DNA from: a virus
IMG/VR virus record: IMGVR_UViG_3300042922_000258
Location: 1 to 60,974 of that record
DNA length: 60,974 nt
Strand: one strand, 5' to 3'
Part shown: piece by piece, positions 2,257-36,336 of the stretch
How positions within the stretch are numbered: position 1 is the stretch's first letter
How the letters are laid out: each line of letters opens with the position of its first letter
Program-made: the position numbers and the translations under genes
The notes under the pieces: model-generated
The model's input: the letters and a program-made list of their open reading frames with translations, nothing else
Databases searched by the model: none
What the model was told of the DNA's origin: nothing

Positions 2257-3969
2257 ATGGCAATTAGAGTAAGACGTGGAAATAAAATAGATTTCGACCC
2301 GAATAAATTACTTTCAGGCGAACCCTCGGCACCGCTTGACAGCAAAGAACTTTTTATTGCATTTGGACCTGGCGATGTAAAAAAAATAGCCACCTACGAG
2401 GACATGGTCACTAATATTGAAAACGCCACCACTGAAATCATAGCTGATTTTACTTCCGGTGCCAATGCATCCGCGAACGTTATCGATGGTGTTCTTGATG
2501 GCATTAATCATTTAATTGATGATGTATCCAGTAAATACTACAAAATGGGGTCTGCAAATGGTGAACTATATCTTGAAGAAATTGCTCCTGACCCAACACC
2601 TCCAGTCTCTGAAACTATTTTAGATGATGTTGGAGGATTGCGAGGTAGAATTGACGGTATTGATCTACAACTTGACATTGTTGAGAACAAAAGCGCAATT
2701 GACGTGTATAGCTATGGCGATGAAACAACAATAGACTGGAAAAATGCTATTGCTTTGGCTGCGACAGCAGCGGCAAACAATGGGGTTAATGCCATAAAAT
2801 TTAGAAAAGGAATTTTTCGTACATCGGAAGATTTACCCGAAGATGTGCATGTTTTTGGCGCTGGTATGGGTGAAACATATATCGATTTCGATATAACAAG
2901 TGGTAACGCTATTAGACTAAAAAGATATAATGTACGGCCAATCAAGATTTATGATTTGACGCTTCGAAATTTAAATCCTACTAATGACGTTGGCGGAATT
3001 TATGTATCCAATGACGATATATACTGGGGTACTGGAGCGGATGTGCGAAATGTTGAGTTAATCAATTTTAAAACTTTTGCAATAAAATTGAGAGGTGCTT
3101 ATAACGCAATTTTCGATCATGTAACAACATACAACGATCCTATAAACGGTTTATATATAAATACAATATTAGATATTGGTGGTATAGATACTAGTAGCTT
3201 TTCAAATCAAATAATGTTCAATCAGTGTGTTTTTCATCGTGGTCACATAGCTTATAAAAATAATAGGGGCAGTGGAATTACGTTTAACATTTGTACATTT
3301 GAAGATTTAGATTTGTTAGGAAATATAGAAAGTATTGATGTATCTCCTTGGACTTTCTTTATAGGGTGCCATTTAGAAAAAGTTAGAAAAGTATTTGTTA
3401 ATGCAAAAATGGATGAAGTAACTCTTTTGCCAATTCTGCCTTTGACTAATCACGCTTCGATGGGATTTATCAAAATGCAAGATTGTTTACCTATTGCCTT
3501 TGTTCCTGAATATGCTTTTGATAGTACGGTTGAACCAATAAATTATAAATATTTTACATATGATAAAGGTCTTTCTTTTGATGTATCTGGTACATTCACA
3601 CCAGAATGTTCTGCTACTCTTGTATCGGGAACGTTTTCTTATACTTTTCGCGTTGGCAACTATAGACGGTTAGGTGACAGAATAGATTTTGATATAAAAA
3701 TTGTTGTTGGTACAATGACTGGGGCAGAGGGTAGATTACAAATTACGGGCTTGCCGTTTGTTTCGAATGGAGAATATTTTGTATCAGTAACATCAAGTGG
3801 GTTAACATGGAATGGCACTATGCCTATTGGAATTGTTCAACACGATACGAATACTGTTAATATTTACGGTTCTTCTTCAAATGAAATATTTAACAGCGCA
3901 GATGCTTCAACATTTGGTGCAGGAGATATTATTTATGTTTATGGAAACTATAAAACTTATTCAAATTAA
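2257..3969 (+). CDS. Tail fibre/spike protein with probable right-handed beta-helix body
   Basis: A 570-residue tail fibre-like protein starting 11 bases after the tail-associated gene with an AGGAGGTGG site. The N-terminal part (about 1-150) is a fibre adaptor with a predicted helical stretch. From about residue 160 it reads like a pectate-lyase-3 type beta helix: a GDETTIDWKNAIALA segment, short hydrophobic rungs and Asn/Gly-rich turns. The last 110 residues look like a separate C-terminal receptor-binding or trimerisation domain. It probably contacts host surface glycans. Enzyme activity cannot be claimed from sequence alone. Confidence 0.7.
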   Translation: MAIRVRRGNKIDFDPNKLLSGEPSAPLDSKELFIAFGPGDVKKIATYEDMVTNIENATTEIIADFTSGANASANVIDGVLDGINHLIDDVSSKYYKMGSANGELYLEEIAPDPTPPVSETILDDVGGLRGRIDGIDLQLDIVENKSAIDVYSYGDETTIDWKNAIALAATAAANNGVNAIKFRKGIFRTSEDLPEDVHVFGAGMGETYIDFDITSGNAIRLKRYNVRPIKIYDLTLRNLNPTNDVGGIYVSNDDIYWGTGADVRNVELINFKTFAIKLRGAYNAIFDHVTTYNDPINGLYINTILDIGGIDTSSFSNQIMFNQCVFHRGHIAYKNNRGSGITFNICTFEDLDLLGNIESIDVSPWTFFIGCHLEKVRKVFVNAKMDEVTLLPILPLTNHASMGFIKMQDCLPIAFVPEYAFDSTVEPINYKYFTYDKGLSFDVSGTFTPECSATLVSGTFSYTFRVGNYRRLGDRIDFDIKIVVGTMTGAEGRLQITGLPFVSNGEYFVSVTSSGLTWNGTMPIGIVQHDTNTVNIYGSSSNEIFNSADASTFGAGDIIYVYGNYKTYSN

Positions 3970-7900: not shown

Positions 7901-7955
7901 TTCGCAATTGGACAATAAAGCGACAAAAATAATGTAAATAATTTGAATAAAACAC

Positions 7956-7983
7956 TTGTAATCTTGTCTCATAATGGTATAAT
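7956..7983 (+). promoter_or_regulatory. Candidate promoter reading into the recombinase gene
   Basis: TTGTAA (7956-7961), a 16-base spacer and a perfect TATAAT (7978-7983). The -10 box lies inside the left arm of the large inverted repeat at 7966-8056. Confidence 0.6.
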
Positions 7984-8056
7984 ATGGCTACAACCATAAA
8001 AAGAAGAGGTAGGCTCTTCCCTGCGAAAGTTGTAGCCTACCTCACCATTATGACAC
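7966..8056. repeat. Nested ~29-bp inverted repeat before the tyrosine recombinase
   Basis: Left arm: GTCTCATAATGGT (7966-7978), then 7 bases, then GGCTACAAC (7986-7994). The right arm, read in reverse complement from 8056, is GTGTCATAATGGT, 6 bases, GGCTACAAC (8037-8029). The arms thus share a 12/13 block and a 9/9 block. A further perfect 10-bp stem, GAGGTAGGCT (8006-8015) with AGCCTACCTC (8034-8043), competes with the inner block. Two half-sites around a 6-7 base spacer, in inverted copies, is the geometry of tyrosine-recombinase sites. An invertible switch, a folded attachment site and an operator are all possible. Confidence 0.7.
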
Positions 8057-8072
8057 TAGGTGCCATGGGGAC

Positions 8073-8101
8073 ATTATACACCCTCTGTGCATTTAGTGCA
8101 A
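8073..8101 (-). promoter_or_regulatory. Convergent minus-strand promoter
   Basis: On the minus strand, TTGCAC (8101-8096), a 17-base spacer and a perfect TATAAT (8078-8073). It fires leftward through the inverted repeat, head-on to the promoter at 7956-7983, and would make an RNA antisense to the recombinase leader. Confidence 0.6.
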
Positions 8102-8120
8102 GAAGGAGAGTGTATTTTTT

Positions 8121-9137
8121 ATGCCCAATTTGAGCCAAGAGATCGCAATTAACATCATCAACGAGGTAATAAAGATAGTACCGTATTTCGATGTTGATAT
8201 TCAACAGCAAGTCAAACTGAGAGATAAAATTGAAGAGCAATTAAATGATTATGAAGTTACAAGCAAATGTACAGCACTTGCAAGATGTGATATTTTGGAT
8301 AAGGCTTTTATCTATCTTGCATGTAAAAAGCTTGAAGGAATGAAAGAAACAACTCGGTACAATTATACTTTATTACTTAAGAGATTGGACGGGCATTTCA
8401 ATAAACCAATATCCACCATTACCACAATGGATTTGCGAATGTTTCTAGCAAGTGAATACAAAGATAATCAACCGAATAGTTTAAATAGCAAAATAAGCTT
8501 ATTGAAGGCTTTCTTTATTTGGCTACAAGACGAAGGGTATATAGTACAAAATCCCACCAAGAACTTACAACAAGCTAAGGAACCATACCGCAGACGAGGT
8601 CATGTAACACCAATTGATGTCGAAAAGATGCGTGAAGAATGCAAGAGTGTTCGAGATAAGGCATTATTTGAAATCTTACTGTCAACCGGATGCCGCGTAT
8701 CTGAGATTACTAATGCAACACTAGACAAGATAGATTGGCAGAATAACAGCATTGAAGTTATTGGCAAGGGTGATAAGGAACGAATGGTTTATTTCAGCAC
8801 CAGAGCGCGCTTGTTTCTGATTAATTACATATCGGATCGCGAAAAGTCCGGCATACTTAGCAACAGCTTATTTGCAGCAAGCAAGAAGCCGTATTTAAAG
8901 CTAGGGCGCAGAAGTATTGAGCGTATTATAGGCGATATAGCCGAGAGAGCCGGAATTTCATATAGCGTTTTTCCGCATTTAATGAGGCATACGTTTGCAA
9001 CAACCGGTGTCAATCAAGATGTTCCAGTACATATCTTGCAAAAATTAATGGGACATTCAAGTCCTGGAGTTACCGAGAAATATTATGATTTAAACGATAA
9101 TAACATAAAGCAAGAATATAGGAAAATAGCACTTTAA
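8121..9137 (+). CDS. Tyrosine recombinase, XerC/XerD-like
   Basis: A 338-residue site-specific recombinase with a SAM-like core-binding domain at about 80-160 and a catalytic domain at about 180-335. The catalytic set is complete: Arg in TGCRVSE, Lys in GKGDKER, HLMRH, GHSSPGVTEKYY with the nucleophilic Tyr. It is closer to XerC/D than the phage integrase at 32368-33588, is not linked to the attP, and sits between tail fibre and lysis genes. A role in DNA inversion, dimer resolution of the circular form or a second integration route fits this position. AAGGAGAG precedes the ATG. Confidence 0.9.
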   Translation: MPNLSQEIAINIINEVIKIVPYFDVDIQQQVKLRDKIEEQLNDYEVTSKCTALARCDILDKAFIYLACKKLEGMKETTRYNYTLLLKRLDGHFNKPISTITTMDLRMFLASEYKDNQPNSLNSKISLLKAFFIWLQDEGYIVQNPTKNLQQAKEPYRRRGHVTPIDVEKMREECKSVRDKALFEILLSTGCRVSEITNATLDKIDWQNNSIEVIGKGDKERMVYFSTRARLFLINYISDREKSGILSNSLFAASKKPYLKLGRRSIERIIGDIAERAGISYSVFPHLMRHTFATTGVNQDVPVHILQKLMGHSSPGVTEKYYDLNDNNIKQEYRKIAL

Positions 9138-9144
9138 AATTATG

Positions 9145-9176
9145 GAGTCGGGAGTTAAAACCTCTCGGCTCTTTTT
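9145..9176 (+). terminator. Terminator after the recombinase
   Basis: An imperfect 10-bp stem, GAGTCGGGAG (9145-9154) with CTCTCGGCTC (9162-9171), is followed by TTTTT. Confidence 0.7.
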
Positions 9177-9289
9177 ATATATTTAAATACTACCAAGATA
9201 TTCATTGACAGCAATCTCTTACACCTGGTCGACTTGCTTAATAACAAAACTGCAGTAATATAAAAAATACCGAAAGAAGGAACTCATAC

Positions 9290-12253: not shown

Positions 12254-13696
12254 ATAAATTACGATATTGGAATATCAGAAATTGTCTGTACCGAACGTTA
12301 TGAGGATACTGACGGTTTAAGTATTCTTTATGATGCAGAGATTGCTAAACGGCCAAATCAATGTACAAATCCTAAGTGTATGCATCATATCAAACCTCAC
12401 GTTCACGGCTCTAAAACCAATCTCATTAAGGATATTAAATCCGAAGGTAAAATTGTTTTGATTAATCTTAAAATCAACCGTTATCGCTGTCCTGATTGTA
12501 AATATGTCTTTCCAGATGAATTTACTTTCTACGAGAAGAATGAACACATCTCTAAGAGACTTAAACAGGAGTTTGTAAAACGCTGTATTAACGGTGAAAC
12601 ATTCCGTTACATAGCCAACGACTACAGTGTTGATGGTAAGACAGTTGCTAAAGCATTTAATGATTATGCCGATACCCACAGGGATAAAGCCGTATTAACT
12701 TACACCCCTGCAATACTGGGTATTGACGAAGCCCATATCGATGACCATTATCGCCTTGTTCTAACCGATATCTTTAATCATAAGTTGTTAGATATTAAGA
12801 AAGATAATAAAAAGGCTACCGTTAAGGATTACTTGCGAACGTTGGACAAGAACGTCTGCCAGTGTGTTACTATGGACTTAGCAAAAGGTTATGCCTATTG
12901 TGTCAAAGAGGTTCTTCCTGATGCTGTAATCGTTGTTGATAAGTTTCATGTCATTCAAGAGATTAACCGTTGTGTTGATAATGTTCGTAAGGATTTACAA
13001 AACCATTATCGAGGTCAAGGCTATGATATAAGAGTTTTTAAGCAATCCAGAACCCTGTTTATGACCAATTGGGAGGATTTATCACCAAGGGCTACCGATA
13101 AGCTTAATGAATGGTTTAATGAGTTCCCAGAGCTATATGAAGCCTATATGGTTAAAGAAACTTTTCGTGATATCTATGCTAATGCTAAAGACTATATTGA
13201 AGCTTCTAAGATGTTTAATGATTGGCTTTATGCTGTACCTGACTGGGAACGCTTTAGAGCCATGAAAAACACCTTTGCCGACCGTAAGGAGCATATTATC
13301 AACTACTGGAAGTATCAATGGACTAATGCCTATACTGAATCGGTAAACAATTCTATCAAGAAGATTGAAAAAGCTGGACGAGGTTACAAATTTGATGTCC
13401 TACGTGACCGTTGTATACTTTCAATCAATAACCCTGCTCCTGATAAATTCAACCACAAGAATGCTATCTATATATCAAAGAACAAGGGCAGAAGCGTATC
13501 GCAAATGCTTGGATATAAGAGGAAAAAGTCGTTATACGATATTGCTTTAAAACTCAATGTTGACCATCTTAGACCTATTACTTTGTATACTGAAAACACA
13601 AAGGATATTGACAACTTGGTTACTCTTACACCTGAACAGAATCGAATGATTGACTATCTACAAATTCTTGGTCGTAGCATGAGAAGTTCTGATTAG
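12254..13696 (+). CDS. ISL3-family transposase with apparent AUA start
   Basis: A 480-residue ISL3 transposase: N-terminal zinc finger (CTNPKCMHH ... RYRCPDCKYVFPDE), helix-turn-helix at about 100-130, and a DDE domain with ILGIDEAH, VTMDLAKGYA, VVDKFHVIQ and TNAYTESVNN. The frame opens right after a TGA at 12245-12247 and the only plausible initiator near the GGAGTG site is ATA at 12254. The first ATG (12380) would cut the zinc finger in half. Either AUA is used or the start has mutated. A terminator-like hairpin overlaps the stop. Confidence 0.88.
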   Translation: MNYDIGISEIVCTERYEDTDGLSILYDAEIAKRPNQCTNPKCMHHIKPHVHGSKTNLIKDIKSEGKIVLINLKINRYRCPDCKYVFPDEFTFYEKNEHISKRLKQEFVKRCINGETFRYIANDYSVDGKTVAKAFNDYADTHRDKAVLTYTPAILGIDEAHIDDHYRLVLTDIFNHKLLDIKKDNKKATVKDYLRTLDKNVCQCVTMDLAKGYAYCVKEVLPDAVIVVDKFHVIQEINRCVDNVRKDLQNHYRGQGYDIRVFKQSRTLFMTNWEDLSPRATDKLNEWFNEFPELYEAYMVKETFRDIYANAKDYIEASKMFNDWLYAVPDWERFRAMKNTFADRKEHIINYWKYQWTNAYTESVNNSIKKIEKAGRGYKFDVLRDRCILSINNPAPDKFNHKNAIYISKNKGRSVSQMLGYKRKKSLYDIALKLNVDHLRPITLYTENTKDIDNLVTLTPEQNRMIDYLQILGRSMRSSD

Positions 13697-32329: not shown

Positions 32330-32367
32330 AACATTAAACCGGCTTAACTACTGAAAGGATGATATAC

Positions 32368-33588
32368 TTGAAATACGAATATCTAGACTATAAATATACG
32401 ACTTATTATAATGAGACCCTTAATTTGTGGGTTTCTGCAATCAACATGGGCAAGGATACTTTTGGAAAAAGAAAACGCAAAGTACTATACGGAGACACCG
32501 AAAAGGATGTTATTAAAAAAGCAAATTCAATTATAATTGACATGAATAATGGAGATTATATGGAACCAAACAAGGATTCCCTTATATGCTTCTTAAAGGA
32601 ATACCACAGAATTAGAGCCGGATGCGATATGTGGAAACCAAACTATAAAATGCCGGAAGACGCTAAATGGGAAGAAAACACAGCTTTGCTGAACAAAATG
32701 TATATTGACGTTCACTTCGAACCTTATTTTAAGGAAATAAAACTTACCGATATTAAACCGGTCACACTGGACAAGTTTTATAATTATAAACTATCAACAC
32801 CGGGTGAATATGAAGTTATGATAAAAGGCAAAAAGGTAAAAAAGGAACGTCCTCCGCTTAGCATGAATACCGTTATTAAGTTGGATAAGTTTCTCAAATC
32901 ATCCTTTTACTATGCTATAAAAAATGGGATGTTGAAAAATAACCCAACGACTGGAGTTGTCGTTCTTGGCAAGAAGAAAAAATATAAGCCAACCGTATTC
33001 AATAAGGAACAGTTTTTAAAACTACTTCAATCGGTTGAGGGCACGGATGATGAAATCCCTATTATTTTAGGTGGAGGATGCGGCCTTAGACGAGGGGAAA
33101 TATTCGGGCTTAAATGGGAAAATGTTGATTTTGATTCCGGTACGATTACAATTGAAAACACAATGATAAGATTTAAGAGCACGAAAGATAAAGATGGTGC
33201 TAAGAATGAACAAAGCGCAAGAACTATAATTATTCCAAAATATGTTTTGGACACATTAAATAATTATAAAATTAAAATAAGCCCAAATGATGCTGACAAG
33301 ATTATAACAAGGTGGAAACCTGGAAGCTACTCAGAACGGTACGGCATATTATTAGACCGCTTCGATTTACCTCATACAAGATTGCATGACCTACGTCACT
33401 ACAATGCAGTTATTATGATGAATAAGGGCATTCCGGATAAGGCCGCAGCAGAATTTTTAGGCCATAAAGATACGCAGATGCTACACGATGTATACCAGCA
33501 TGTCCAAGAAGAAATGAAACAGAAAACAGCTGATACCATTAATGAAATGTTTAAAAAGAAAAATAGCCATGAACCCCGGGAAGAGTAG
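32368..33588 (+). CDS. int: Phage integrase (tyrosine recombinase)
   Basis: A 406-residue Tn916-type integrase. Catalytic residues: GCGLRRGEIFGLKW (Arg), HDLRHYNAV (HxxR), GHKDTQMLHDVYQHV (His and the Tyr). The start is TTG 32368: AAAGGA lies eight bases upstream, whereas the ATG at 32359 would be too close. attP lies 60 bases downstream. It integrates the genome into a tRNA-Leu-like gene. Confidence 0.92.
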   Translation: MKYEYLDYKYTTYYNETLNLWVSAINMGKDTFGKRKRKVLYGDTEKDVIKKANSIIIDMNNGDYMEPNKDSLICFLKEYHRIRAGCDMWKPNYKMPEDAKWEENTALLNKMYIDVHFEPYFKEIKLTDIKPVTLDKFYNYKLSTPGEYEVMIKGKKVKKERPPLSMNTVIKLDKFLKSSFYYAIKNGMLKNNPTTGVVVLGKKKKYKPTVFNKEQFLKLLQSVEGTDDEIPIILGGGCGLRRGEIFGLKWENVDFDSGTITIENTMIRFKSTKDKDGAKNEQSARTIIIPKYVLDTLNNYKIKISPNDADKIITRWKPGSYSERYGILLDRFDLPHTRLHDLRHYNAVIMMNKGIPDKAAAEFLGHKDTQMLHDVYQHVQEEMKQKTADTINEMFKKKNSHEPREE

Positions 33589-35451: not shown

Positions 35452-36336
35452 ATGGTATTAGGGTGTGATATAGGAAACCAATTTATAAAAGATAGCCAGC
35501 ATAAGATTTTTAAATCGTGTTTTACTTATCAAGACACATCACTATCAGATATAAATAAAATTACAATCGATGGATTGGACCACTTCTTTGGAGTTGGAAA
35601 TCCTACTGTCGATATAGATAAAATAGACGCGCCAATAAACAAAATAGGTATACTATCAAGCATTGCAATGTGTGGCTCGAATGAATATTACATAGTGGTT
35701 GGACTGCCGATTACTCAATACAAGGCAAAGAAGGAACGACTCCGCAATATGGTAATGTCGTACAATGGATGCGATATAATTTACAATGGGAGGAAAATTA
35801 ATTATCACATTAGGGACGTTGGGGTTTGTCCGCAGGGAATTGGAGCACTATACACTATCAATTCTTCCAGCGATAGAATACTTTTCGATATAGGAAGCTA
35901 CACAATAAATGTGGCATTAATTGAATATTCAAATGGAAATCCCAAGATAATTAAATCCGACACCTGGTATAGCGGCGTGCTCAATTTATATCAGAGAGTA
36001 ATTGAAGAGATTAATCGAAAATTTGACTTAACATTAAAACCAAGTTACGCAGAAAAAGTCTTATCAACTGGTGAACTTTCCATTGACGGCAGCCCTTGCG
36101 ATTTGAAGTTTTTGAAACCAATTATTTCAGATTATCTGGATCCGGTGTTTACTCAATTCAAGCTTAAGTACGATGAATACAAAACGGTCCCAACTACTTT
36201 AATCGGTGGAGGGGCGGAATTATTACACGGAGCCTTCGAACGGACCGTAAAGAACTGTGAGATCATAGAAGACTCACAATTCGCAAACGCCTTGGGGTAC
36301 CATCGTTATGGTATAGATAAATTTATATGCAGATAA
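35452..36336 (+). CDS. parM: ParM-like actin ATPase
   Basis: A 294-residue actin-fold protein: phosphate-1 motif VLGCDIGNQFIKD (residues 2-14), phosphate-2 motif ILFDIGSYTINVALIEY (about 143-159) and adenosine motif TTLIGGGAELLHGAFE (about 247-262). It would form filaments that push sister plasmids apart. Together with the small gene that follows and the upstream repeats it forms a type II partition locus, which implies stable extrachromosomal maintenance of the prophage. Confidence 0.85.
   Translation: MVLGCDIGNQFIKDSQHKIFKSCFTYQDTSLSDINKITIDGLDHFFGVGNPTVDIDKIDAPINKIGILSSIAMCGSNEYYIVVGLPITQYKAKKERLRNMVMSYNGCDIIYNGRKINYHIRDVGVCPQGIGALYTINSSSDRILFDIGSYTINVALIEYSNGNPKIIKSDTWYSGVLNLYQRVIEEINRKFDLTLKPSYAEKVLSTGELSIDGSPCDLKFLKPIISDYLDPVFTQFKLKYDEYKTVPTTLIGGGAELLHGAFERTVKNCEIIEDSQFANALGYHRYGIDKFICR

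Follow-up and report, generated by a model that had tools for sequence, protein, structure and literature searches.

A probable countertranscript attenuator in the leader of a phage tyrosine recombinase gene

The recombinase locus

The virus record IMGVR_UViG_3300042922_000258 (positions 1 to 60,974; this whole 60,974-nt stretch is called the window) encodes a tyrosine recombinase, designated P0001, whose leader contains an inverted repeat, two convergent promoter-like sites, and a set of competing stems. Here we describe this leader and its relatives and ask what it does. The recombinase gene is flanked by tail-fibre and endolysin genes, in agreement with its initial annotation as lying between tail-fibre and lysis genes, and with an intrinsic terminator of its own it looks like an independent unit. 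P0001 is closest to XerA, XerD, and XerC and falls under every NCBIfam cutoff for them (NF040815 best, 181.6 bits with a cutoff of 220; XerC, 160 with a cutoff of 335; XerD, 159 with a cutoff of 330); by the NCBIfam equivalog test it is a relative of the Xer recombinases, not a member. The features of the locus are as follows.

7956-7983, plus strand: putative sense promoter, with a -35-like TTGTAA at 7956-7961 (4/6), an extended -10, TGGTATAAT, and TATAAT at 7978-7983
7966-7978 and 8044-8056: outer blocks of the 29-bp inverted repeat, GTCTCATAATGGT and ACCATTATGACAC
7986-7994 and 8029-8037: inner blocks of the repeat, GGCTACAAC and GTTGTAGCC
8006-8014 and 8035-8043: competing third stem, GAGGTAGGC and GCCTACCTC, the important one of the stems
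8101-8073, minus strand: putative antisense promoter, TTGCAC at 8101-8096 (3/6), 17 bp, and TATAAT at 8078-8073
8066 to 7996, minus strand: predicted antisense RNA of ~70 nt, starting near 8066 and ending at the U-tract 8005-7996
8006-8043, minus strand: predicted antisense terminator hairpin, GAGGTAGGC (8043-8035) with GCCTACCTC (8014-8006), followed by TTCTTTTTAT, the loop containing CUUUCGCAGGG
8054-8098, plus strand: pre-emptor (antiterminator) stem, CACTAGGTGC at 8054-8063 with GCATTTAGTG at 8089-8098, seen in the free fold
8076-8120, plus strand: sense terminator-like hairpin, ATACACCCTC at 8076-8085 with GAGAGTGTAT at 8106-8115, and a U-tract at 8115-8120
8100-8108, plus strand: ribosome-binding site (RBS), AAGAAGGAG, inside the sense terminator-like hairpin, which ends at the start codon
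8121-9137, plus strand: P0001, a XerA/XerC/XerD-like tyrosine recombinase of 338 amino acids (PF00589 match)
9144-9180, plus strand: intrinsic terminator after the recombinase

The outer and inner blocks of the repeat are separated by 7 nt in the arm at 7966-7994 and by 6 nt in the arm at 8029-8056. In 7901-8120 the highest-scoring gapped inverted repeat reaches 17, above all of 200 dinucleotide shuffles (mean 9.8, maximum 16), and the repeat strand folds far better than shuffles both as RNA (z-score, -5.65) and as DNA (-4.36). The repeat described in the initial annotation is present, block for block, as is the third stem that competes with its inner blocks; two further elements, the pre-emptor stem and the 8076-8120 terminator hairpin, had been overlooked there. 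Promoter-like sites do enter from both sides, as had also been proposed, and both -10 boxes are perfect, but both -35 boxes are poor, so that calling the promoters perfect in type was an overstatement. A sense transcript would be expected to start near 7990. With such weak -35 boxes, and with no surplus of promoter-like sites in the region overall (6 observed, 8.1 expected), it is conservation that must decide on the promoters. A sequence scan also flagged 8006-8043 on the minus strand as a terminator-like site, and the 5' arm of the pre-emptor stem lies within the stretch that the predicted antisense RNA would cover.

Conservation of the recombinase leader

Among the compared loci, which carry L-numbers, the nearest relative of the window is L002, whose recombinase is 76% identical and occupies the same place after the tail genes. 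The two leaders are 81% identical and align over their whole length; the recombinase DNA is 72% identical (third positions, 48%), and the DNA upstream of the promoter is 46% identical. The extended -10 of the sense promoter, TGGTATAATATGG, is identical in L002, which also keeps GACACTAGGTGCC, GGGACATTATACAC, and GTGCAAGAAGGAG with a U-run before the ATG, and the GAGGTAGRC/GYCTACCTC stem is kept there with a compensatory change from G-C to A-T. The conserved unit is this 140-bp leader and not the inverted-repeat arms within it.

Clostridia genomes and phages also contained recombinases 31 to 38% identical to P0001. Eight distinct leaders could be compared, those of the window, L002, and six further loci (L025, L026, L027, L029, L033, and L039), with recombinases 31 to 76% identical to P0001. 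In all eight, the antisense strand has a TATAAT 36 to 43 bp ahead of the start codon, and a -35-like box lies 17 to 18 bp from it; this arrangement appears at the same place in 0.2 to 0.8% of dinucleotide shuffles of each leader. Such an antisense promoter was absent from seven relatives scanned alike (L003, L028, L030, L036, L037, L038, and L040). A sense TATAAT lies 138 to 153 bp before the ATG in six of the eight. In the six further leaders the antisense strand has a predicted small hairpin and then a long one, followed in most by a T-rich tail that is weak in L027 and L029. Ahead of the gene, the window, L002, and L039 have a U-run and then the start codon, and the sense terminator-like hairpin of the window has equivalents in the other two; the clade of L025, L026, L027, L029, and L033 has RBS hairpins without a U-tract. 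On the recombinase tree, the loci with this leader fall on three separate branches. DNA pattern scans for it in viral contigs returned L002's contig only, blastn with the leader region turned up nothing of use in phages or plasmids, and a scan of genome contigs with an N-terminal peptide pattern gave one weak, unhelpful match.

Another structured leader lies upstream of the recombinase relatives in L024 and L028. It forms a three-way junction whose loop, UCCCUGAG, has two complementary partners: the RBS stretch UCAGGGAGG and, a little upstream of it, the decoy CUCAGGGG.

Covariation and folding

An alignment of the antisense strand of the eight leaders (A4) contains 18 consensus pairs, 13 of them with two-sided changes, and 91% of its cells are paired. 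None of 500 shuffles reached the alignment in cells paired, in pairs with two-sided changes, or in covariation score (28 of 500 reached its number of pair types), and controls with slid partners brought pairing down to 44 to 54%. In helix 1 (two-sided changes in 3/5 pairs), the antisense -35 region pairs with the region of the 5' hairpin; because the -35 region lies outside the antisense RNA, we assign this helix to the pre-emptor of the sense leader. Helix 2, in which 9/10 pairs show two-sided changes, is the antisense terminator hairpin, followed on that strand by the T-rich tail in most leaders. What is shown for the leader is its conservation, its covariation, and its fixed spacing.

In the sense RNA, only one of two structures can form at a time, the pre-emptor stem or the RBS-bearing hairpin. 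When the stretch covered by the antisense RNA is masked, the predicted fold of the window leader switches from the pre-emptor to the terminator hairpin. Masking also lowers the predicted accessibility of the RBS in six of the eight leaders, although in L027 the drop is marginal (0.48 to 0.46).

Proposed mechanism and alternatives

Countertranscript attenuation was worked out as plasmid copy-number control. We regard it as rather probable that the region is a countertranscript-driven attenuator controlling the XerA/XerD-like phage tyrosine recombinase, in which a small antisense RNA probably shuts off the recombinase gene, in the manner of certain bacterial plasmids that restrain their own copy number. 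The sense promoter (7956-7983) would produce the recombinase mRNA with a leader of ~130 nt, and the antisense promoter inside the leader (8101-8073) would produce an RNA of ~70 nt with two hairpins and its own terminator near 7996. In the leader alone, the pre-emptor (8054-8063 with 8089-8098) would form and block the terminator-like hairpin (8076-8115), so that the mRNA would be completed with its RBS free. Abundant antisense RNA would instead pair with the leader through its loops and cover the pre-emptor; the terminator-like hairpin would then form, and either transcription would stop or the RBS would be hidden at the start codon. As the antisense RNA would rise with the number of DNA copies, the recombinase would be kept low and likely shut off while the phage genome multiplies. 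That antisense RNA levels track copy number is established for plasmids pT181 and pSK41, and we infer the same for the phage leader.

Several points weigh against this model. Transcription, antisense binding, termination, and the copy-number logic are inferred from sequence. Eight leaders are few, some of them closely related, and the recombinase tree does not settle a single origin, one origin with losses and repeated acquisition both being possible. Because five leaders have no U-tract, control in the L025-L033 clade would be translational. The sense terminator of the window has one mismatch and a short U-tract, and its pre-emptor pairs inside the terminator loop, excluding the terminator by topology (crossing pairs), whereas the L039 pre-emptor pairs directly to the terminator's own 5' arm. 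In L002 and L039 the minimum-energy fold has the terminator even when unmasked, and masking raises RBS accessibility; with the terminator folded in both states, a kinetic model is needed. The Rfam family RF00242 (ctRNA_pT181) scored 20.4 bits in the window and 18.5 in L027 (cutoff, 56) and had no match in L039.

The initial annotation offered three readings, an invertible on/off switch, a folded single-strand attachment site, and a self-regulating operator with antisense RNA. In the first two, the arms would be bound by the adjacent recombinase, and the segment between them would invert or serve as an attachment site. The arms do beat chance and adjoin a recombinase, related recombinases occur in type I restriction-modification loci of the hsdS-like kind (L036-L038), and the tyrosine invertase Rin shuffles tail genes in Bifidobacterium phages (PMC6109161). 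The comparison with close homologues that had been named beforehand as decisive goes the other way: the arms (GTsTCATAATGGT / GGCTACAAC) are gone in L002, where the remaining leader is kept, and for want of that conservation both the switch and the attachment site are unsupported. Furthermore, within one arm the two blocks do not look like a pair of inverted half-sites, and the neighbourhood of the tail genes yielded no additional copies of the arms. The conserved hairpin keeps its pairing while its sequence varies, as expected of an RNA and not of a recombinase-binding DNA site. We therefore consider a recombination site or invertible switch very unlikely. From the third reading, the antisense RNA survives, upheld by the conservation and covariation of the leader; its other half, an operator to which the recombinase itself would bind, found no support.

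A leader that senses a ligand or protein (a riboswitch or autogenous control), with a nonfunctional antisense RNA and an incidental antisense promoter, would account for the covarying pre-emptor and the RBS-containing terminator of the sense RNA itself, and the leaders of L024 and L028 are structured with no such antisense promoter seen (the promoter scan covered L028). It would not account for an antisense -10 that is perfect at a fixed distance in 8/8 leaders or for the T-rich tail that follows the main hairpin on the antisense strand; the leader alignment has no invariant sense core of the aptamer type, and no Rfam riboswitch matched. On balance we think a sensing leader unlikely. We give hardly any credence to transcriptional interference, in which polymerases colliding from the two promoters, and not an antisense RNA acting on the leader, would set recombinase expression: the convergent promoters are ~90 to 100 bp apart in most leaders, as such a scheme would have it, but interference has no need of a covarying antisense terminator hairpin or of a pre-emptor/terminator pair.

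Comparison with known control systems

The countertranscript model can be set against characterized systems. Plasmid pT181 makes an 87-nt RNAI and has a pre-emptor and, immediately ahead of repC, a terminator that contains the RBS (PMC5703833). The window resembles it (Rfam RF00242) in predicted antisense RNA size, in the two hairpins, and in the RBS terminator before the start codon, and it has a candidate pre-emptor, a stem supported by covariation. As in the pT181 type, the predicted antisense promoter faces the sense promoter from within the leader in 8/8 leaders; the predicted antisense RNA is short, with two stem-loops and its own terminator; and an RBS-bearing terminator-like hairpin directly precedes the start codon in the window, L002, and L039, although the L025-L033 clade has RBS hairpins alone. 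The antisense loops are also similar (AAACUUUGGU in the ctRNA_pT181 Rfam consensus, AAACUUUGGUC in L027, CUUUGGUCGG in L039, and CAACUUUCGCAGGG in the window). The difference lies in the target, which in pT181 is a replication initiator and here is a phage tyrosine recombinase. No Rfam family passed in the window, L002, or L003, and nothing relevant was found in the other loci.

In pSK41, an RNAI of ~83 nt with two stem-loops induces a hairpin that hides the RBS of rep (PMC5703833). Such translational control fits the L025, L026, L027, L029, and L033 clade, a likeness of architecture and not of target gene, so that the window, L002, and L039 would be of the pT181 type (U-tract terminator) and the clade of the pSK41 type (RBS sequestration). 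The RNAIII/repR system of pIP501 likewise uses antisense attenuation and a poly-T terminator before rep (PMC5703833), although with a leader of ~320 nt, compared with ~130 nt here, and a separate Cop protein.

Among recombinases, tvrR of Streptococcus pneumoniae is a tyrosine recombinase gene held down by an attenuator resembling a Rho-independent terminator, and removal of the hairpin raised tvrR mRNA more than 40-fold (PMC6265443). That attenuator differs in its place, the interval from tvrAT to tvrR, and TvrT acts there as an additional repressor; antisense control of it is only suggested by the authors of that study (PMC6265443). It was the only case found in the literature on antisense or attenuator control of phage recombinases, and as far as we found, antisense-RNA control of a phage recombinase has not been described before. 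The present leader gives a phage recombinase gene the complete predicted anatomy of a countertranscript system, and this anatomy is conserved and covaries even between distant phages, which suggests that phages may limit site-specific recombination by the same copy-counting logic as plasmids.

A wider family in Clostridia

The comparison yielded a covariance model, R1, for an uncatalogued antisense-RNA family of Clostridia. R1 recovers all eleven recombinase leaders, of which eight are its training set and three are copies of those; the window antisense RNA, itself in the training set, scores 84 bits (E = 2e-14). R1 found nothing significant at the other loci. At E <= 0.01 it matched 12 of 391 Clostridia genomes; it matched 8 of 58 genomes of one order and, among 399 sampled genomes of the phylum, one that was already known.

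Sixteen loci with weaker matches (32 to 43 bits), none of them in Rfam, were aligned; in this alignment, which was fitted to the model, all 10 terminator-stem pairs show two-sided changes (0/500 shuffles). Most of these loci directly follow a small gene resembling the ribbon-helix-helix (RHH) family (matches below the Pfam cutoff), and several precede DUF6809 genes. The arrangement recalls copG-RNAII-repB of pMV158, with an RHH gene, an antisense RNA, and a regulated gene in a row, but there the 48-nt RNAII blocks translation directly (PMC5703833), and the Clostridia targets are DUF6809-type genes and not repB. It is possible, though we put it forward only tentatively, that the element is a portable antisense-RNA attenuator module outside Rfam, spread over Clostridia phages and other loci and placed before site-specific recombinases and RHH/DUF6809-type operons, where it would act as a copy-number gate on phage recombination, expression falling as element copies rise.

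The Clostridia loci L045-L058 and L060-L062 have antisense elements of this architecture with a small RHH/CopG-like gene (of the MGRPTDNPK... type) on one side and a small downstream gene, in several loci DUF6809, on the other; L056 and L057 have two copies each.

Genome context

The window is probably a complete circular genome of ~60.8 kb, since its first bases recur near its end (overlap of ~125 bp, 1-125 against the last ~140 bases); the short fold-back tail after the overlap is an assembly artefact. A second, longer integrase lies at 32359-33588. A ParM/actin-like segregation protein (35452-36336; PF17989, ParM NCBIfam below cutoff) suggests a plasmid-like prophage state, in which copy-number control of the recombinase would make sense. 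An ISL3-family transposase gene (12380-13696) follows soon after the lysis genes, within the phage genome.

A 49-amino-acid frame at 7984-8133, a conceivable small membrane protein, was rejected: no protein family matches it, and the frame that opens at the equivalent ATG of L002 runs for just four codons before a stop.

Repeat searches of the window gave no convincing tail-gene shufflon array. The Rin shufflon of Bifidobacterium phages, like the window, has a phage-encoded tyrosine recombinase beside tail genes, but Rin inverts receptor-binding-protein cassettes at 11-bp rix sites (PMC6109161), of which no such array was found in the window. The motif TAATTTGAAT has only three copies in the window, at 3959 (minus), 5407 (plus), and 7939 (plus), all at gene boundaries of the tail region and the last just upstream of the recombinase promoter; they are possible recombination sites, although their number is near chance expectation in AT-rich DNA. 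The recombinase relatives in L036, L037, and L038, which are without the antisense leader, adjoin hsdM/hsdS-like type I restriction genes (reading frames judged by eye). In the close relatives L039, L065, and L066, tail-gene and neighbouring segments are replaced, with no inversion. Between L039 and L066, whose recombinases are 98% identical, the C-terminal half of a small tail-region protein is swapped, and the two also differ by an extra gene immediately before the recombinase leader.
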